Virus record (IMG/VR): IMGVR_UViG_3300008219_000114
Span: 1-22,706 of that record
DNA length: 22,706 nt
Direction: 5' to 3' (one strand)
DNA from: a virus
The notes under the pieces were generated by a model that saw only the letters and a program-made list of their open reading frames with translations, was not told the origin of the DNA and did not search any database. Positions within the stretch are counted from its first letter, which is position 1. Each line of letters opens with the position of its first letter. Positions 2,672-22,619 of this stretch are shown in pieces. The translations under genes were made by a program, and so were the position numbers.

Positions 2672-3425
2672 AGCATTGACCGATGCTATGGAATCTGTTG
2701 AAGCAAAACCTGTTGAAACAGAAGAAGCCGATTCAAGCGGGAAACCACAATTTTTGAATAATCTCGTAGGCGAGGGTAAAAAGTATAAAAATACTGATGA
2801 TCTCGCTAAAGCATACCACCACGCCAATCTCCATATTGATGAACTTAAATCCGACCTGGAAGAGTTTAAAGGTGGTAAAGAACTTCTTAATGAGGTTCTA
2901 GACGAAATTCGTAATTCCAATCCAGAAGAGAGTACTGAAGTCTCGGCCCCACCAAAGGCCCCGGCAGAGGCTCAAATCCAGACGGAAGATGTAGCGAAGC
3001 TCGTTAGTGATGAGTTTTCAAAGAAGGAACAAGAGACACAAGCTAAGAATAATGTCCAACTTTCTTTTGAAAAACTTACAAAAGCCTATGGTAGTCAAAG
3101 TAATGCTAAAGCTGCCGTGGCTAAGACTATCGGGGATGATGAGTATATCAAAAATACCATTGATAATCTCAGTCTTACAAGCCCGGATGCGATGGTCAAA
3201 TTTATCACTGGTGTAACCCCTGTTGAAGCTTTGGCAGAGGGAAACACTCCCGGTGTTGACGCTGCCGCTGGCTCTACAATTGGAGCGGGCGGGTTGACTT
3301 GGGCTCAGTGTAGAGAGATCCGTAAAACAGATCCTAAACGCTATAATAGTCCTGACTTTCGTCAATCTATTGAAGCCGCAGCTAATGCGGCTGCTGCTAA
3401 GGGCGTTGACTTTTTCGCAACATAG
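2664..3425 (+). CDS. Capsid scaffolding protein
   Basis: A 253-residue, acidic, helix-rich protein directly upstream of the major capsid gene. This is the position and composition of podovirus scaffolds (T7 gp9), which guide procapsid assembly and then leave. The N-terminal 25 residues are Glu/Ala-rich. Residues about 30-70 hold a pattern common in such scaffolds (N-N-L-V-G-E-G-K-K-Y then D-D-L-A-K-A-Y and a charged coil). The centre is Pro/Glu/Gln-rich and likely flexible. The C-terminal end (L-T-W-A-Q-C-R-E-I-R, then basic and Ala-rich helix) is the likely capsid-binding helix. AAAGGA sits eight bases before the ATG, inside the preceding small gene, which it overlaps by eight bases. Call by synteny and composition rather than a catalytic motif. 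Confidence 0.8.
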   Translation: MAEALTDAMESVEAKPVETEEADSSGKPQFLNNLVGEGKKYKNTDDLAKAYHHANLHIDELKSDLEEFKGGKELLNEVLDEIRNSNPEESTEVSAPPKAPAEAQIQTEDVAKLVSDEFSKKEQETQAKNNVQLSFEKLTKAYGSQSNAKAAVAKTIGDDEYIKNTIDNLSLTSPDAMVKFITGVTPVEALAEGNTPGVDAAAGSTIGAGGLTWAQCREIRKTDPKRYNSPDFRQSIEAAANAAAAKGVDFFAT

Positions 3426-3442
3426 GAGAAGGGAGTATCTAG

Positions 3443-4375
3443 ATGGCTTTAGATACTGTTAACAACTCTTCATTAGTTCGTACAAATGTATGGGCAAATG
3501 AAGTGAAGGATGTTCTCCAAGAAGAGTTAATGTTGGATTCTCATATCCGATGGATTACTGAGTTTCCCGATGGCGATACTCTGAACATCCCGACCCTTTC
3601 CGAAATGACGGTTCGCAACTATTCCGAAGGTGCGACTATCACTTTGGATGATCCTACGACTGGTAACTTTACTCTTACTATTGATAAGTATTACCAGAGT
3701 GGGTTCAAGATTCCTGAAAAATTCCGCCATGATTCATTTTATGTGTCTATTGCGGAATCTAATTTTGTTCAGAAACTCACTCGTGCGTTGCTTGAACAGA
3801 AGGAATCAGACATTGCCAACTTGCAATCTTCGCAAACTGCCTCTGACCCCAATACAATTAACGGCGTAGATCACCGTTATGTTGGTACTGGCACAAACGA
3901 AGCTATAACTCTTGCTGATATGCAGAAAGCAAAACTAGCTCTGGATAAAGCGAAAGTTATGCGTGGTGGCCGTAGGGCATTTGTAGACCCCTCGGTTTCT
4001 TACGAATTGCAGCAGATCAGTAATGTTATCCAACAAGATGTTTATGGTGGTAATGTTCATATTAAAGAAGGTATGAATGGAACTGCTTTTGTTGGACGAT
4101 TTGCTGGCTTTGATCTTTTTGAGTCGTTGTTTCTTGACAACGCGATTACTGAAACGATCACTGCTACTGCTCCTAGTGCAGGTTCGGCCACTGGTACAAG
4201 TGCCTTTGCCAACATGTTTGTTGGAGAGGAAGCTTTTATCGGTGCTCTCCGTGCATTGCCCGATATGGATGCTTGGTACGACAATAACACTCGTTCAGAC
4301 GTTTACCATGTGACGATGAGATATGGCATTAAGTTATATCGTCCAGAGTCCCTGGTTATCGTCTTAACAGAATAG
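3443..4375 (+). CDS. Major capsid protein
   Basis: A 310-residue protein following the scaffold, with a strong ribosome binding site (AGGAGAAGGG) before the ATG. The size is close to other podovirus coat proteins with the HK97 fold (T7 gp10A is about 345). Features that fit are a helical N-terminus, an extended E-loop-like region near residues 45-80 (T-L-N-I-P-T-L then T-I-D-K-Y-Y), a long spine-like helix around 105-130, R-G-G-R-R-A-F-V-D-P-S-V near 173-184, and a terminal strand ending Y-G-I-K-L-Y-R-P-E-S-L-V-I-V. Codon choice here is less AT-biased than in the neighbouring AT-rich genes, as expected for a very highly expressed protein. It is followed by a capsid-associated gene and then a hairpin terminator. 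Confidence 0.87.
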   Translation: MALDTVNNSSLVRTNVWANEVKDVLQEELMLDSHIRWITEFPDGDTLNIPTLSEMTVRNYSEGATITLDDPTTGNFTLTIDKYYQSGFKIPEKFRHDSFYVSIAESNFVQKLTRALLEQKESDIANLQSSQTASDPNTINGVDHRYVGTGTNEAITLADMQKAKLALDKAKVMRGGRRAFVDPSVSYELQQISNVIQQDVYGGNVHIKEGMNGTAFVGRFAGFDLFESLFLDNAITETITATAPSAGSATGTSAFANMFVGEEAFIGALRALPDMDAWYDNNTRSDVYHVTMRYGIKLYRPESLVIVLTE

Positions 4376-4390
4376 TAGGAGGGAAAGATT

Positions 4391-4960
4391 ATGGCGCAAG
4401 TTAGAACTCCTGCTGGATCTGGTGCTGGAACTGGCACTGGCTCCGAACAGACTGGTAGCTCCAGCACCACGCTGAATGCACCACAGGATCTCACGTTTAA
4501 TGAGATTCCTGGTGTAGTAAACGGTATGGGCTCTGGACATGTCTGGTACGATATTATTGATGGTACTCTATTTAGTGGTACTGTTGAATCTACCTCGTCT
4601 GACTTCGTGTGGCAGATGACCGCTGCTGATAAAGGCCGCATTGTTGGCATCATGTATGCTAATGGCAGTGTGGCTATGAGTGGTAGTGTTGGTTGGGAAC
4701 TTGATTTTATCAATGACACCCAAGCTGATGCCACTTGTGCGTACTTTGGTTTCGGTTCCGGTACGGAAGCTGCCAAAGGCACGGACAATGACGTTGCTGT
4801 TGCTGCGGATACTACTGTTTATGTATCCAACAGCCTCACTACTGGTGCTTCTCACTTTAACGCTGGTGATCTGATTCAGGTTACAGCGGATCGTGACGGT
4901 ACAACTGGTGTTGGTTCGTTCCGGTTGCTCGTTTCTTACGAGTCACAGGGCCACGTATAA
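4391..4960 (+). CDS. Beta-rich capsid-associated protein, possible decoration protein
   Basis: A 189-residue protein with an excellent ribosome binding site (TAGGAGGG, seven bases before ATG). Residues 6-30 are a Gly/Ser/Thr/Ala-rich linker. The rest alternates hydrophobic and small residues in beta-sandwich style (V-W-Y-D-I-I-D-G, G-W-E-L-D-F-I-N-D, S-F-R-L-L-V-S-Y). It lies between the major capsid gene and a terminator, with codon use like the capsid gene, so it is probably made in large amounts and sits on or in the capsid. A head decoration or minor head protein is the most economical reading. No family is recognised with certainty and no enzymatic motif is seen. Confidence 0.55.
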   Translation: MAQVRTPAGSGAGTGTGSEQTGSSSTTLNAPQDLTFNEIPGVVNGMGSGHVWYDIIDGTLFSGTVESTSSDFVWQMTAADKGRIVGIMYANGSVAMSGSVGWELDFINDTQADATCAYFGFGSGTEAAKGTDNDVAVAADTTVYVSNSLTTGASHFNAGDLIQVTADRDGTTGVGSFRLLVSYESQGHV

Positions 4961-15883: not shown

Positions 15884-17388
15884 TGGCTGATCGTCCAACA
15901 ATTTCTTCACACCCATCGGGTGGGCGATATAGTGTTGCTACCCTGAATGCTAATTTCCAGGCATTACGAGATGAGTTTGATAATGTATTTGGAACTAATG
16001 GTGTAGGCGGGGCTAATAATTCCATGTCGGGTAATCTCGACATGAATACATATAATGTTATTAATGCTGGTAGTATACTTGATAGTGCTGGTGTCGATCT
16101 AGCACTACAATCAGGGTTTGCTGAAGAGTGGGCAAGTAAGGCTGAGGATAGTTTGGTAAGTACCGCTGCTGGTGGCAATCTGGTAGATGAATATTCCTCT
16201 TTACATCATGCCGCTAAGGCTTCTGCTAGTGCTACCTCTGCATCATCCTCTTCTTCTACCGCTACTACCCAGGCGTCTAATGCTTCTACAAGTGCTACTA
16301 ATGCTGCTACAAGTGCTACTAATGCTTCCACTAGTGAAACTAATGCTGCTACAAGTGCTACTAATGCTTCTACCTCAGAAACTAATGCATCTACCTCAGA
16401 AACTAATGCTACAAGTATTATTTCGTCTATAGGTCTTAATTATAATTTTGATAGTTCTACTACTATGGCGGACCCTGGTACTGGTGACTTCCGCCTTAAT
16501 AATGCTACTGTGGCTAGTGTCACGGCAATTGCTGTCGATGCTACTACCAATGATACCGGCAATCCCGATTTATCTGATTTTGTTGCTACGTGGGATGATA
16601 GTACTAGTACCATTGCTGGTTATATTGTAGGAAAGAAGGTTGGTACGCCAGCTACTTTCTTCGTATACTCTGTATCTACTGTTGCGGATAATACAGGCTG
16701 GCTTCAATTAACTGTTACTCATGTGACTAGTAATGGTACTTGGACTGCTGGTGATGATTGTATCTTCCAGTTTTCTCGTTCTGGTGACAAAGGCGATACT
16801 GGTGTTGGGGATATGAGTGATCTTATTGATGATCTTACTCCCCAACTTGGTGGTGACCTCGATTGTAATGGCGCACAAATCCAATGGAGCAAAGGTGCTG
16901 ACGTAGCGTCTAATTCAGCACTTCCTGTGCTTACAGACGGTAATTATTTCGATGTCACGGGAACTAGTACAGTGTCGAGTATTAATACTACTGGTGGGGC
17001 TGGCACCCTTATTAAACTACACTTCGATGGTGCTGTTACGCTGACCCATCATGCCACAAATCTAATCCTTGCTGGTGCAACGAACTTCACGACCGAGGCC
17101 GGTGACGAAGTTGAGTTCGTTGAATACGATACAGGTAAATACCGTATGACAGGTTGGAGCTTGGCTGGCACGGCCCCAGGAGGTGGGGGAGGAGGTGCCT
17201 TCCTTGGCGAGGGTGCTTCCGGTGCTTCAGTAGGTGACAGTGGTGATATTATCAGGGTTAATCAACAGACATTAGACACTTCCCAAACTATGAGTGCCAC
17301 TGATAATGGCAGTTGTGCGGGACCATTCAGTGTGGCTTCCGGCGTGACCTTGACCATCAACTCCGGCGCAACATTCACGGTGATATAA
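15883..17388 (+). CDS. Tail fibre protein, proximal
   Basis: A 501-residue fibre with GGAGGAAGG just before the TAATG start. Order of parts: N-terminal attachment-like region (1-75) with L-N-A-N-F-Q-A-L-R-D-E-F and S-G-N-L-D-M-N-T-Y-N-V-I-N-A-G; E-W-A-S-K-A-E-D and H-H-A-A-K-A-S-A-S (about 85-120), as in T7 gp17-type fibres; six and a half heptads of T-N-A-[SA]-T-S-[EA] (132-178), a likely trimeric coiled coil; a beta domain; a collagen-like G-D-K-G-D-T-G (301); L-G-G-D-L-D-C-N-G (322); a beta module (336-430) shared with the next gene; a Gly run; and a tip ending S-G-V-T-L-T-I-N-S-G. Composition turns GC-richer after about residue 320, inside the gene. Confidence 0.85.
   Translation: MADRPTISSHPSGGRYSVATLNANFQALRDEFDNVFGTNGVGGANNSMSGNLDMNTYNVINAGSILDSAGVDLALQSGFAEEWASKAEDSLVSTAAGGNLVDEYSSLHHAAKASASATSASSSSSTATTQASNASTSATNAATSATNASTSETNAATSATNASTSETNASTSETNATSIISSIGLNYNFDSSTTMADPGTGDFRLNNATVASVTAIAVDATTNDTGNPDLSDFVATWDDSTSTIAGYIVGKKVGTPATFFVYSVSTVADNTGWLQLTVTHVTSNGTWTAGDDCIFQFSRSGDKGDTGVGDMSDLIDDLTPQLGGDLDCNGAQIQWSKGADVASNSALPVLTDGNYFDVTGTSTVSSINTTGGAGTLIKLHFDGAVTLTHHATNLILAGATNFTTEAGDEVEFVEYDTGKYRMTGWSLAGTAPGGGGGGAFLGEGASGASVGDSGDIIRVNQQTLDTSQTMSATDNGSCAGPFSVASGVTLTINSGATFTVI
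16276..16416 (+). repeat. 21-bp tandem repeat coding fibre heptads
   Basis: Six full 21-base units plus a 15-base partial unit lie in frame in the fibre gene. The encoded units are S-N-A-S-T-S-A, T-N-A-A-T-S-A, T-N-A-S-T-S-E, T-N-A-A-T-S-A, T-N-A-S-T-S-E, T-N-A-S-T-S-E and T-N-A-T-S. The DNA core is ACTAATGCT plus TCTACAAGT or close variants. Alternation of the seventh residue between Ala and Glu, and near identity at the DNA level, suggest recent slippage or unequal recombination that sets shaft length. Confidence 0.9.
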
Positions 17389-18257
17389 TGAGTACAGTTA
17401 AGACAGATGCCATCGTCGCTGTTAGTACTAACGGCAATCTGGACCTCAGCGGCCAGGGGACGGGCGGCGTTGCGGTTTCCGATTACCTTATCCTGAGTAA
17501 GGGCGCTGATATTGCTTCTGCAACAGCATTGACCCTAGGAAAGGATGGTTCTGCCTTTGACGTGACAGGCACTACAGCCATCACTTCCATCGGCACTCAG
17601 GGTGTTGGCTCCCATGTAACTTTACATTTCGACGGTGCATTGACATTTACCCACCACGCTACTGATTTGATCCTACCGGGAGCGGCTAATATCACGACTG
17701 CCGCTGGCGATATAGCGGTCATGTACGAATACGCTTCCGGCGATTGGCGGTGCGTTAGTTACACTAAGGCTAGTGGTGAGGCAGTTGTTGCTGGTGGCGG
17801 GAAGATTGTGCAAGTCGTAAATGTTACGAGTGGTGCGGCGCAGACATCTACTGCTACCACATGGGTCTTTGATGATACTACTCCTCAGAATACAGAGGGT
17901 ACGGAATGGCAAACACTGGCAATCACACCCACTAATTCTTCTAACAAACTCTTGATTGAGGTCGTTCTAAATTCGATGTTCCACAATCAAGCAACTCACA
18001 AAATTGGAGCCGCCCTGTTTCAAGATAGTAACGCCGATGCTCTTTCTAGTGGCTTACGAGTTGGGCCGACTGCCCAGTGGGGAGGTAGCATTGTATTCTC
18101 ACACTATATGACGGCTGGCACTACAAGTTCCACTACCTTTAAGGTAAGGTTTGGAACAGCAACAGCGGGAACCCATAGCATAAATACTGATCATAATTCT
18201 GCTCGGTTCAATGGGACTATAGGCTCGACTATTACAATTACGGAGATTGCAGTATGA
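17388..18257 (+). CDS. Tail fibre / receptor-binding protein 1 of an array
   Basis: A 289-residue protein. The ATG at 17388 is in a TAATG overlap with the proximal fibre stop; the frame stays open to 17313, but homology with later genes begins exactly at this ATG. Residues 1-10 are the leader M-S-T-V-K-T-D-A-I-V shared with two later genes, followed by a G-T-G-G-V turn. Residues 37-130 are a beta module (L-S-K-G-A-D-I-A-S, D-V-T-G-T-T, L-H-F-D-G-A-L-T, T-H-H-A-T-D-L-I-L) closely matching 336-430 of the proximal fibre and common in phage fibres. The C-terminal half (G-K-I-V-Q-V-V, I-T-P-T-N-S-S-N-K-L-L-I-E-V) is another widespread phage fibre tip type. Probable host-recognition unit. Confidence 0.75.
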   Translation: MSTVKTDAIVAVSTNGNLDLSGQGTGGVAVSDYLILSKGADIASATALTLGKDGSAFDVTGTTAITSIGTQGVGSHVTLHFDGALTFTHHATDLILPGAANITTAAGDIAVMYEYASGDWRCVSYTKASGEAVVAGGGKIVQVVNVTSGAAQTSTATTWVFDDTTPQNTEGTEWQTLAITPTNSSNKLLIEVVLNSMFHNQATHKIGAALFQDSNADALSSGLRVGPTAQWGGSIVFSHYMTAGTTSSTTFKVRFGTATAGTHSINTDHNSARFNGTIGSTITITEIAV

Positions 18258-18556: not shown

Positions 18557-19330
18557 ATGTCAACAATCAAGACAGATGCAATCACCGCTGTCAGCACTAA
18601 TACCGACATCTCAGTCGATGGTGATGGGACAGGTGTTCCTGATCTTGGGGCAGGGATGAAAGTAGGTGGTTCTGTCGGTATCCCGGTTAGTGAGTTACGT
18701 ACCGGCACTGATGGTGAACTAATCACATGGGATGCTTCCGGCAATCCAACGACTGTCGCTGTTGGAACATCGACCCATGTGTTGACCTCCAACGGTGTAG
18801 GTGCGGCCCCTACGTTTCAAGCGGCGGCTGGTACTTTTGTCGAAAAAGTAACTTGCAGTGGTAATGCCACAGAAGAACTGGGCGAGGGAAATATTGAGGC
18901 CGGATATATTTATCGGCTCCACTTCCTTAACGTAAAACCGAGTGCAGACGCACATGTACTCGTTTTAATCGGTACAGGCGGCGGTCCGACATACTTAACT
19001 TCCGGCTATGCGGGGGACGGATGGAGGAATACGGGATCACATGGCGGTTATGCCAATCCGTCAACCAGTGTTCAGCTTGGTTCCGGGGCTGGCGGGGCGT
19101 CAGCCGGAGAAACCATGAATGCGACAATGCGGATTATGAATGCTGCAGAAACGGTTGAAACAAAATTTTATGTAAACGGCACATGGCAGGACTCCGGCGG
19201 CAACGAAAGCGGTTTTGCGATGGGCGCGGAACAGACAGGAACAGCAGCAGTTACCGGATTTCAGGTTAAATCTGCTTCCGGCAATCTGGCAAGCGGAGAT
19301 ATAGTTCTGGCACGGGAGAAATTATCGTGA
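18557..19330 (+). CDS. Tail fibre / receptor-binding protein 2 of an array
   Basis: A 257-residue protein; GGAAGGA seven bases upstream of the ATG lies in the end of the preceding gene. It starts M-S-T-I-K-T-D-A-I-T-A-V-S-T-N, nearly identical to the previous fibre-like protein, then G-D-G-T-G. Residues 45-95 contain the common phage fibre motif I-T-W-D-A-S-G-N-P and H-V-L-T-S-N-G-V-G-A-A-P-T-F-Q. The C-terminal 160 residues form an unrelated beta domain with many Gly (G-G-G-P-T-Y-L-T-S-G-Y, W-R-N-T-G-S-H-G-G-Y) and F-Y-V-N-G-T-W, a plausible ligand-binding tip. The stop overlaps the next gene by GTGA. A second receptor-binding unit with a different tip is the natural reading. Confidence 0.72.
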   Translation: MSTIKTDAITAVSTNTDISVDGDGTGVPDLGAGMKVGGSVGIPVSELRTGTDGELITWDASGNPTTVAVGTSTHVLTSNGVGAAPTFQAAAGTFVEKVTCSGNATEELGEGNIEAGYIYRLHFLNVKPSADAHVLVLIGTGGGPTYLTSGYAGDGWRNTGSHGGYANPSTSVQLGSGAGGASAGETMNATMRIMNAAETVETKFYVNGTWQDSGGNESGFAMGAEQTGTAAVTGFQVKSASGNLASGDIVLAREKLS

Positions 19331-19758: not shown

Positions 19759-20163
19759 TTGTCCACGATTAAGGCCAATGCAGTCGAACCAACGACAACA
19801 AACTCGGCACTAACACTCTCGGCCAACGGCACGGGCGGCATTGTTATCGGTACGGGATTTGGTTGTAGTCAACAGACGGTTTACGACCTTGGCACCAACA
19901 GTAGTGGAACCGAAACTTTGGATTCCGATAACGGCAATTTCCAGAAGGGCGTAAATGGAGGGGCGCATACTTTGGCTCCGCAGTCCCAGCTATCGACTAT
20001 CGTGGTTCAATATACGAATAACGCCTCTGCCGGGACGTTGACCACCAGTGGCTATGACATCGTGACTGGAGATACGATCAGTACGACAAATGGCGATGAT
20101 TTCATGCTTTATTCGACTGTTAATGGTGCGTTCCAGCACCTTCATGTGACGGCCCTGCAATGA
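19759..20163 (+). CDS. Fibre-like protein 3 of an array, short
   Basis: A 134-residue protein with a TTG start. The choice is secure because AAGGAG lies seven bases upstream, there is no closer ATG, and the translation from here (M-S-T-I-K-A-N-A-V-E) matches the leader of the two earlier fibre-like proteins residue by residue. Next come a Thr/Asn-rich strand and G-T-G-G-I-V-I-G, then an all-beta body (V-Y-D-L-G-T-N-S-S-G-T-E-T-L-D, D-I-V-T-G-D-T-I-S-T). It lacks the longer tip domains of its paralogues, so it may be a collar or adaptor whose tip is supplied by the next gene, which it overlaps by ATGA. Confidence 0.68.
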   Translation: MSTIKANAVEPTTTNSALTLSANGTGGIVIGTGFGCSQQTVYDLGTNSSGTETLDSDNGNFQKGVNGGAHTLAPQSQLSTIVVQYTNNASAGTLTTSGYDIVTGDTISTTNGDDFMLYSTVNGAFQHLHVTALQ

Positions 20164-20810: not shown

Positions 20811-21245
20811 ATGGATATTTTAATCAAAACATCGGACAGCACCGAGATTTGGCGGTGGCCCACACCGCCTGGGAAAGTTGACATCCCCGGCACAGGTGAT
20901 GTCGTATTCCCTGCTCCAGATGACAGGCCACTGGCTATCGGCCCAGACCACTTTCTAGCCACGGCAACGGTTGTCGATGAGGCTATCGGTGACGGCCAGA
21001 AGCGTGGGCCGGAAGTTGTTACAATTGTCGGCCAGGAAGTGACGGTAACGCGGACATCAATCGACAAAGACGCCGATGACCTCCTGGCCGAATGGAAAAC
21101 CGAGATGTCGGAAGCGACAAGAGATATGCCCGACTGCGTCGAGGCCGTTATCGACAGCATGGACGTGGCCCAACTGGGCCGATTGGGTCAGGTTGCAAAG
21201 GACCATTTAGCAAACAAGAAGATGGTAAGAGAGGCGAAGCCGTGA
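20811..21245 (+). CDS. Hypothetical protein in chaperone position after fibre genes
   Basis: A 144-residue acidic protein with AAGGAG six bases before the ATG. The first 80 residues are a beta-type region rich in Pro, Gly and Asp (D-I-L-I-K-T-S-D-S-T, W-P-T-P-P-G, G-Q-E-V-T-V-T-R). The rest is helical (D-A-D-D-L-L-A-E-W-K-T-E-M-S-E, M-P-D-C-V-E-A-V-I-D-S-M, H-L-A-N-K-K). This layout of small beta domain plus helical end, and the position after the third fibre unit, parallel the two chaperone candidates earlier in the array, but the sequence motifs differ. A third fibre chaperone is plausible, not shown. The stop overlaps the holin candidate start (GTGA). Confidence 0.55.
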   Translation: MDILIKTSDSTEIWRWPTPPGKVDIPGTGDVVFPAPDDRPLAIGPDHFLATATVVDEAIGDGQKRGPEVVTIVGQEVTVTRTSIDKDADDLLAEWKTEMSEATRDMPDCVEAVIDSMDVAQLGRLGQVAKDHLANKKMVREAKP

Positions 21246-21448
21246 ACAAAGCCCACGAGCAAATCCAACAGTTGAGTAGCGACACCGTTGGAAAGATATC
21301 GGTTGGGATTGGCGGCGGGGGGACGACTGCGCAGGTGATTACTGAGTGGGGTAATTTATTTGTTCTCGCTGGTAATGCAATTCTGGTAGCTGGTGGTTTA
21401 TATTTATTAGTATTCAAAGTACGAGATAGGTGGAGAAAGGGGAGGTAA
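21242..21448 (+). CDS. Holin candidate, single membrane span (T7 gp17.5-like)
   Basis: A 68-residue protein. GTG at 21242 overlaps the upstream stop (GTGA) and has GAGAGG seven bases before it; upstream codons in the same frame are Arg/Gly-rich shadow. There is one hydrophobic segment at about 38-59 (N-L-F-V-L-A-G-N-A-I-L-V-A-G-G-L-Y-L-L-V), preceded by a soluble Gly-containing N-terminus and followed by a strongly basic tail (K-V-R-D-R-W-R-K-G-R). Size, topology and location right after the fibre genes match T7 gp17.5 (67 residues), a one-span holin that opens the inner membrane at lysis. Base composition changes from GC-rich to AT-rich within the gene. It could instead be another small membrane protein, but holin is most likely. 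Confidence 0.75.
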   Translation: MNKAHEQIQQLSSDTVGKISVGIGGGGTTAQVITEWGNLFVLAGNAILVAGGLYLLVFKVRDRWRKGR

Positions 21449-21451
21449 CTA

Positions 21452-21787
21452 GTGAAGTTATTTTTTGTCTTAGTGTGGTTTTTATTTATATTTGTTACCC
21501 CCTCTATTGCTGAAAAGCCTAGAGTTTCTGACGGCTCTTCTATTCGTGTTGGTCATTCTCAATGTGGATCTACATTGACTTCAAGAGAAGCATTAAAGAA
21601 ATTAAATGAAAAGGCAGTAGCATCAGCCTTAATGGATATAACATCTGGGGATACTGTAATTGTAACAATTTTTAATAATCAGTCAGGGGATTGGACTATT
21701 ATGGTAGATGGCAAGAATGGTATTAGTTGTATGGTAATGTGGGGTAGAAATTGGTTTAACATTAAAGATGAAGGTGATAGTTTATGA
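21452..21787 (+). CDS. Small secreted protein with two cysteines
   Basis: A 111-residue protein with GTG start and a strong site (GGGGAGG, seven bases upstream). The N-terminus is a clear signal peptide: Lys2, a hydrophobic core F-F-V-L-V-W-F-L-F-I-F-V, and likely cleavage after T-P-S-I-A (residue 20). The mature part of about 91 residues has Cys38 and Cys93, which could form one disulfide in the periplasm. There is a helix near 43-60 (S-R-E-A-L-K-K-L-N-E-K) and strands such as W-T-I-M-V-D-G-K-N-G-I-S-C-M-V. Similar small secreted proteins with G-x-W-T and an S-C pair near the end occur in phages and alphaproteobacteria without a known role. Placed after the holin, it might act in lysis or host-envelope modification. 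No peptidoglycan hydrolase motif is seen. Confidence 0.75.
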   Translation: MKLFFVLVWFLFIFVTPSIAEKPRVSDGSSIRVGHSQCGSTLTSREALKKLNEKAVASALMDITSGDTVIVTIFNNQSGDWTIMVDGKNGISCMVMWGRNWFNIKDEGDSL

Positions 21788-21804
21788 CTATCGTCCTGAC
21801 GTGA
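21784..21804 (+). promoter_or_regulatory. Six-codon coupling mini-ORF before the PP-loop gene
   Basis: ATG at 21784 overlaps the stop of the secreted-protein gene (ATGA). It is preceded five bases away by AAGGTGAT, whose AGGTGAT matches seven bases of the anti-Shine-Dalgarno partner. The frame codes M-T-I-V-L-T and stops at TGA 21802-21804, which in turn overlaps a GTG (21801) in frame with the next gene (GTGA). This would let ribosomes restart directly on the PP-loop gene. It may be a genuine leader or the remnant 3' end of another gene left by recombination. Confidence 0.5.
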
Positions 21805-22619
21805 CACGCCAACCAACCCTGCGTATTTTGAGTCTTGGCGCTGGTGTCCAGAGCAGCACTATGGCGCTGATGGCGGCGCACGGGGAAATAACGCCTATGC
21901 CTGACTGCGCGATCTTCGCTGACACCCAAGGTGAGCCAAAGGCGGTGTATGAGCATTTGAAGTTTTTAATGTCCCCCAACGTCCTCCCCTTTCCTGTCCA
22001 TGTAGTCACACAAGGAAGCCTAAAGGACAAGATCGGGCGCAAGCGGCCCAAAGGAAAATGGGCGCACCTACCAATCCCGGCCTTTATACAAGGGAGCCGG
22101 GGGACAATCGGTCCGGGGAACCGGGATTGTACGAGAGACTTTAAGATCGTTCCCATCCAGAGAAAGGCGAAGGAACTAGCCGGCATCACCAGGAAAAAAG
22201 CCCCAGACCACCCTGTGGTCACCCAATGGATAGGCATTTCAACCGATGAGGCGTCGCGTCAAAAGCCCAGCCGGCACGCCTGGTGCGAACATCGGTTTCC
22301 CTTGATTGAGGCGGGGATGAGTCGCGGGGACTGCCTGGAATGGATGCGGAGACATGATTATCCAACACCGCCGAAAAGTGCTTGTACGTTTTGCCCCTAC
22401 CACAACAGCACCCTATGGCGCGACCTCAAGGTGAATGACCCTGAAAGTTTTGCAGAGGCGGTGGAGGTGGATAAGAAAATCCGTGGGGTTTGGGAGGGGA
22501 AAACCATATCGCTCCACTCATCGGGAAAGCCGCTTGAAGAGGTGGACTTTCGCAACTTGGAGGACAAGGGCCAACTCAACATGTTCAACAACGAATGCGA
22601 AGGGATGTGTGGGGTATGA
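21801..22619 (+). CDS. PP-loop ATPase, 'PAPS reductase-like' family
   Basis: 272 residues from GTG 21801; upstream in-frame starts at 21768 (ATG) and 21774 (GTG) add up to 11 residues but lack binding sites. The N-terminal S-L-G-A-G-V-Q-S-S-T (11-20) is a modified PP-loop, which binds ATP and activates a substrate by adenylation, and F-A-D-T-Q-G-E (39-45) is the second nucleotide motif of this superfamily. Cysteines at about 110 (D-C-T-R-D-F-K-I-V-P-I), 178, 195 and 198 (C-T-F-C-P-Y-H) could bind an iron-sulfur cluster or zinc, and the end is E-C-E-G-M-C-G. The CysH active-site motif ECGLH is absent, so sulfate assimilation is unlikely. Relatives in phages and plasmids are uncharacterised; sulfur modification of nucleic acid is one possibility. 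Composition is clearly GC-richer than the gene just before it. Confidence 0.8.
   Translation: MTRQPTLRILSLGAGVQSSTMALMAAHGEITPMPDCAIFADTQGEPKAVYEHLKFLMSPNVLPFPVHVVTQGSLKDKIGRKRPKGKWAHLPIPAFIQGSRGTIGPGNRDCTRDFKIVPIQRKAKELAGITRKKAPDHPVVTQWIGISTDEASRQKPSRHAWCEHRFPLIEAGMSRGDCLEWMRRHDYPTPPKSACTFCPYHNSTLWRDLKVNDPESFAEAVEVDKKIRGVWEGKTISLHSSGKPLEEVDFRNLEDKGQLNMFNNECEGMCGV

Follow-up and report, generated by a model that had tools for sequence, protein, structure and literature searches.

The question raised by this locus is whether a phage gene of the kind labelled cysH belongs to sulfate assimilation, the role under which viral cysH genes are read in ecological surveys (PMC8725595), or to another branch of PP-loop chemistry. 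In a table of soil viral genes, cysH is listed as 'not validated' (PMC12713726). The window, that is, the whole stretch of DNA analyzed here, is an IMG/VR virus record of 22,706 bases that encompasses terminase, portal, capsid and tail genes, the portal being closest to those of Lentibacter, Roseobacter SIO1 and ICP2-type podoviruses (37-38% identity). The last complete gene ahead of the contig end encodes a protein of the PP-loop fold (Table 1) which an earlier note, made from the letters of the window, had separated from CysH.

Table 1. Position of the PP-loop gene, its motifs and the adjacent genes in the window.
Feature	Coordinates	Strand	Remarks
One-span membrane protein, holin-like in appearance only	21245..21448	+	no Pfam family
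Small protein, signal-peptide-like start, AT-rich	21452..21787	+	PHROG 25396, unknown function
PP-loop sulfur-transferase-like gene	21801..22619	+	272 aa from GTG, stop-free; PHROG 424, E 1.6e-43
Degenerate PP-loop SLGAGVQSS, residues 11-19	21831..21857	+	Q17 at Asp position of SGGKDS
FADTQGEP, residues 39-46 (FADTQGE 39-45)	21915..21938	+	D41, E45 conserved
R-x-C110-T-xxx-K115	22122..22145	+	aligns with RWCTxxxK of SspD/DndC and CC motif of CysH/APS reductase row
GISTDEASR, residues 145-153	22233..22259	+	E150, R153 invariant across families
C178	22332..22334	+	kept in PHROG 424 family, not in SspD
SACTFC, residues 193-198 (CTFC 195-198)	22377..22394	+	CxxC aligns with cluster CxxC of DndC and CysH/APS reductase row
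ECEGMCG, residues 265-271 (ECEGMC 265-270)	22593..22613	+	CxxxC pair on low-confidence tail (pLDDT 58 and 48)
Lipoprotein-like start (MSNPLIVVVIALILSGCAAAG), truncated at contig end	22616..22705	+	start only

In the 5' to 3' direction, the PP-loop gene follows fibre-like ORFs, the one-span membrane protein and the signal-peptide-like protein, and precedes the truncated lipoprotein-like start. Its own start is uncertain: initiation at an upstream ATG in the same frame (21768) would lengthen the protein by 11 residues, to 283 aa. The list of ORFs also contains a six-codon frame (21784-21804) that overlaps the upstream stop with its ATG and the GTG at 21801 with its TGA; translational coupling and an assembly base error are both possible. 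The G+C content of the PP-loop gene, about 54-56%, is that of most of the profiled contig stretch, amid which the small secreted-looking gene (21452-21787) stands at about 35%. The 'lysis' label of the genes beside the PP-loop gene has no Pfam support and derives from membrane and signal-peptide features only. Three of the fibre-like ORFs (17388-18257, 18557-19330 and 19759-20163) resemble one another in their N-terminal segment (MSTxKxxAxxxxTN...), which may be an attachment module present in repeat.

All the motifs that the earlier note had picked out (SLGAGVQSS, FADTQGE, CTFC and ECEGMC) were found in the translation, which ends in NECEGMCGV and, as had been stated, lacks ECGLH. The motif set is far beyond chance, recurring with conserved cysteines in at least 131 relatives from viral contigs, of which the best 80 (46-62% identity to the query) were kept. 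The search patterns for these viral homologues included some of the cysteines, which biases their conservation. In bacterial rows (the best 80 of 427 candidate stretches, mostly from Alphaproteobacteria) collected with cysteine-free patterns, C110 is present in 78/80, C178 in 79/80, C195 in 79/80, C198 in 78/80, and the tail cysteines C266 and C270 in 76/80 each. The position of the SGGxDS aspartate is occupied by glutamine in 79/80 viral and 78/80 genome rows and, in the cross-family alignment, by proline in PptA (see below); ATP adenylation is therefore not to be assumed, which counts against the suggestion of 'another adenylation reaction'. Ten residues (G15, S18, E45, C110, T111, K115, E150, R153, C195 and C198) are invariant across the families compared, and the candidate catalytic residues of the PHROG 424 family are kept at 95-100%.

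The claim that the protein is not a CysH was borne out by several comparisons. A search for PF01507 gave no match in the window record (0/1) and was positive in 14/14 control genomes; the 272-aa protein matches neither PF01507 at E up to 0.1 nor any Pfam model past its cut-off, nor, at E values of 1 or below, any NCBIfam model, the DndC model TIGR03183 included. The one family to which it was assigned, PHROG 424, bears the name 'phosphoadenosine phosphosulfate reductase', and genes of this kind bear the PAPS reductase label in phage records too, in keeping with the remark that they are often annotated as sulfur-metabolism genes; the match covers residues 6-272 and leaves the first 160 profile positions unmatched. 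In profile-profile comparisons, the closest groups are SspD-like proteins (E 1.3e-21), SspD (2e-21), the PptA family (1.6e-13) and a phage group with the PP-loop SGGKDST (3.8e-11), followed by the weaker matches to DndC (3e-4), CysH (1.4e-3) and CysD (0.018), whereas those to TtcA (0.25) and TilS (0.91) are the weakest, the former not being significant.

The phylogeny with CysH, DndC and TtcA that had been proposed as a check points in the same direction. In a tree of 73 rows, the PHROG 424 family, SspD, SspD-like proteins, PptA and the FSGG group are separated by a branch with 100/96 support from CysH, CysD, DndC, TtcA and the SGGK group. The family alignment A1 comprises the query and 41 of 45 non-redundant viral rows (L021, L040, L042 and L067 were excluded). 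In AU tests, joining the query to CysH was rejected (p 0.0006), as was joining it to CysH plus CysD (p 0.021) and, marginally, to DndC (p 0.049), whereas placement with SspD (p 0.205) or PptA (p 0.318) was not. The tree tool flagged long branches, including one that joins the SspD-like group to the PHROG 424 family, and the order of groups within the SspD side is accordingly not to be trusted. Taken with the profile kinship to SspD and PptA, which agrees with the earlier suggestion that the residues point away from CysH and maybe to nucleic-acid thiolation, these data make the 272-aa protein very probably a sulfur transferase of the SspD/PptA side rather than a CysH. This class assignment is well supported; the PAPS reductase label on PHROG 424 is not.

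SspD is the sulfur-inserting PP-loop subunit of the SspABCD system of DNA phosphorothioation and acts together with SspA, SspB and SspC. The query is collinear with SspD over 238 columns and shares RxCTxxxK, the DE motif, CxxC and a C-terminal cysteine pair, but SspD has an SGGKDS PP-loop in the place of GAGVQS, a CxxC tail and three partners. Under hmmscan, the PADLOC SspD model scores the query at E 2e-14 and 52 bits, against 446 bits for a true SspD. This model (PDLC02782) is positive in 7/14 control genomes with an E limit of 0.001 and weakly matches many frames of ~520 aa that read as GMP synthase-like, so that PADLOC SspD calls denote relatedness rather than membership, and a lone low-score call in a prophage says little about phosphorothioation. 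The SspD calls of similar strength reported for Sinorhizobium prophages (PMC12429752) are likely to represent the PHROG 424 family or a sister family. A PADLOC scan of the 24 ORFs of the window, which is a fragment, and of the two complete gene-bearing phages scanned for Dnd/Ssp, P23-77 (36/37 CDS) and HTVC034P (63/63), found 3 proteins with an SspD-type match and none that matched a further Dnd or Ssp family.

The three putative cluster cysteines of the query align with C146, C280 and C283 of DndC (PMC12193691), but the profile match to DndC is weak, as noted above, and, in our reading of the alignment, the query has no equivalents of C262 and C273. C178, the spacing of which had hinted at a counterpart of DndC C262, was discarded in this capacity because the profile alignment put it in a helix opposite a DndC valine. 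Among named phage relatives, gp05 of Thermus phage P23-77 is a member of the PHROG 424 family with 39% identity to the query. Roles beyond sulfur metabolism have been suggested for the P23-77/Tsatsa PAPS reductase homologue (PMC11437467), in an account that, in the excerpted text, comes without a mechanism, a link to IscS or a cysteine analysis. Likewise, prophage genes of the phiT46-1 homologue type have already been compared with DndC (PMC8092301); the gene of Mycobacterium phage phiT46-1 is a distant homologue that lies near genes for cysteine dioxygenase and glutaredoxin.

A candidate for the source of sulfur emerged from a PDB profile search with the PHROG 424 family, in which the only sequence below E 0.1 was PptA of entry 21fy (E 0.0054). 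The sequence of PptA agrees at all 250 residues with a protein that is annotated as hypothetical in Vibrio phage vB_VhaP_VH-5. The same entry, as a search with IscS revealed, contains a chain with the sequence of E. coli IscS (1p3w_B), the housekeeping cysteine desulfurase of this bacterium; from the presence of both chains in one PDB entry, PptA and IscS presumably form a natural complex. Literature searches recovered neither a published function of PptA nor a paper on 21fy. Like the query, PptA is the product of a stand-alone phage gene, is homologous at the profile level (the E value is given above) and has equivalents of C110, C195, C198, C266 and C270, which are present in 76/76 ungapped rows of its family. 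Unlike the query, it has the PP-loop SCGAPS, and its rows form a separate clade (100/100) that leaves the query outside, with 21% identity between the two. By analogy with PptA, IscS is probably the sulfur donor of the query as well.

An AlphaFold2 model built on the family alignment (pLDDT 93.0, pTM 0.87) is confident except for the last two blocks, the tail, at 58 and 48. Its fold matches are PP-loop enzymes, namely PAPS reductase 7rge (Z 14.2), NcsA (Z 12.8), TtuA (Z 12.5) and APS reductase 2goy (Z 11.9), with Z scores so close together that the comparison cannot choose among PP-loop classes; no DndC or SspD structure is among the matches listed by VIA-align, which excludes nothing. The C-terminal cysteine pair takes the form CxxxC in the query and PptA, CxxC in SspD, CxC in SspD-like proteins and C-x6-C in the SGGKDST group, whereas the trimmed rows of DndC, CysD and TtcA have no such pair. 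Judging by these sequences, a cysteine pair close to the C-terminus appears to be a theme of the side of the superfamily to which SspD and PptA belong, yet the SGGKDST phage group, which shares it, is set by the tree beside DndC and CysH.

The family is widespread on mobile elements. Relatives of the query are found in 48/50,697 phage records, all at <60% identity and both in tailed phages and in the tailless P23-77 and Salisaeta phage, and in 206/72,556 plasmid records, mostly of Agrobacterium and Rhizobium. Of 299 genomes from a single phylum, no more than 3 carry the PHROG 424 family (E up to 1e-30), a number that includes the centre genome; this indicates a mobile, accessory gene. Within the phage group of the window, evidence to this effect is thin: the 1561-aa virion protein, used as a query, recovered no relatives, the capsid protein gave 30 loci, and the PP-loop gene is present in 0/29 of the records behind these loci, most of which are short. 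Among the three related stretches compared (L259-L261), only L259 extends well beyond the fibre genes, and convergent metabolic genes are found there.

Among the 116 near neighbours of the viral genes (from 57 dereplicated loci), the Pfam families seen most often are C5-cytosine methylase, AAA_25 and a helix-turn-helix (4 each), then primase, Toprim and terminase (3 each), with no sulfur-related Pfam family among the 25 families listed; in phages, the neighbours of PHROG 424 genes include primases, helicases, SSB and DNA methyltransferases. A cytosine methyltransferase gene lies <=150 bases upstream or 600 downstream in 4/86 viral loci. On plasmids and chromosomes, an ardC gene is located <=150 bases upstream in 52/82 loci and a ParB-like protein is encoded somewhere in 62/82, neither count being dereplicated; after dereplication at <90% identity, the ArdC cluster comprises 15 and the ParB cluster 18 of 105 loci, 57 of these viral. 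The adjacent ArdC proteins consist of an ArdC N-terminal and a zincin-like metallopeptidase domain, and ArdC has an anti-restriction role. When the neighbour proteins were scanned against PADLOC, 132 families matched. The late-operon setting described in the earlier note is peculiar to the window contig; on other elements, replication and DNA-modification genes or ardC take its place, and the position of the gene accordingly says little about its function. On a Mesorhizobium plasmid with phage genes, a PHROG 424 member is fused in frame to half of a C5-cytosine methyltransferase, the N-terminal one (L162:7479-8798); this fusion, a single case and possibly a degraded gene, was set aside as evidence.

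Among the explanations considered, the best is a stand-alone sulfur transferase fed by the host IscS and acting on nucleic acid, probably DNA, although, with all its parts taken together, its chances are slightly below even. In this scheme, the degenerate PP-loop fold of the model would bind a nucleotide or a phosphate-containing substrate, and C110, C195 and C198, which align with residues of APS reductase and DndC, would hold a [4Fe-4S] cluster together with one further ligand. The host IscS, as the PptA-IscS entry suggests, would give its persulfide sulfur either to the cluster or to the mobile C-terminal CxxxC tail, and the second tail cysteine might then resolve the persulfide, in the way the end dithiol of ribonucleotide reductase serves as a resolving pair. 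The sulfur would be placed on nucleic acid, most likely the DNA of the mobile element itself, with protection from restriction as the outcome; this step is proposed because of the kinship with SspD, the pairing with ArdC and the DNA-metabolism neighbours. Nucleic acid is favoured as the substrate, and DNA in particular is a tentative choice. The distance to PptA, the phages that lack SspA, SspB and SspC, and the loss of the PP-loop aspartate, as in CysH, count against this explanation. In a bolder and, as a whole, unlikely version, the gene would be a one-gene system of phages, plasmids and integrative elements that docks on the housekeeping IscS, takes up persulfide via a [4Fe-4S] site of three cysteines and a swinging C-terminal CxxxC tail, and modifies the DNA of its own element with sulfur, in the backbone or on a base, as an anti-restriction mark that requires no other Dnd or Ssp protein, the pairing with ArdC on plasmids guarding DNA that enters a new host.

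An RNA or tRNA thiolase that acts in the manner of TtcA, TtuA or NcsA, and alters translation or shields phage RNA, is an improbable alternative, albeit the one that fares best: the fold is common to the [4Fe-4S] tRNA thiolases NcsA and TtuA, and tRNA thiolation in E. coli also draws its sulfur from IscS, but the window contains no tRNA gene, the TtcA profile match is not significant, and both the DNA-centred neighbours and the pairing with ArdC point elsewhere. Somewhat less probable is a decoy or inhibitor that performs no sulfur chemistry itself and disables host phosphorothioation or iron-sulfur supply, either by binding the IscS of the host or through mimicry of SspD or DndC. Such a role would fit a gene that stands alone, the occurrence of PptA and IscS in one PDB entry and the existence of phage antagonists of Dnd such as JSS1_004 (PMC12345140); the strong conservation of the candidate catalytic residues goes beyond the needs of a binding decoy. 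Least probable is a divergent PAPS/APS reductase that serves sulfate assimilation in infection, with the C-terminal CxxxC in place of ECGLH, which could claim the top PDB fold matches, a PP-loop devoid of the ATP-pyrophosphatase aspartate as in the CysH rows and the record labels, but is contradicted by the PF01507 search, the rejected CysH clade, neighbours that are DNA genes rather than sulfur genes, and the PF01507 genes already present in 5/5 of the searched bacterial genomes with the PHROG 424 family.

The family itself is known from databases, and roles outside sulfate assimilation have been hinted at (PMC11437467; PMC8092301, in the passages concerned); the PptA-IscS link, the common five-cysteine layout and the ArdC pairing are new as far as literature searches show. 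If the PHROG 424 family sulfurates nucleic acid, counts of sulfur assimilation based on viral cysH need revision, and a large family borne on mobile elements acquires a testable biochemical role, with the PptA-IscS entry naming the partner to test for the query family. Were one phage gene, together with a desulfurase of the host, to put sulfur into phage DNA, the route would be new and very simple.

Two further observations concern C-terminal cysteines. In the copy on Ti plasmid C58, an in-frame stop just ahead of the last residues (L161:8862-8864) removes the CxxxC tail, and other Ti plasmids carry intact copies of the gene. In the related phage stretch L259, an ORF that reads as ribonucleotide-reductase-like (2874-4544) has CEIGGKGGVCGV as its C-terminus, a dithiol tail similar to ECEGMCGV.
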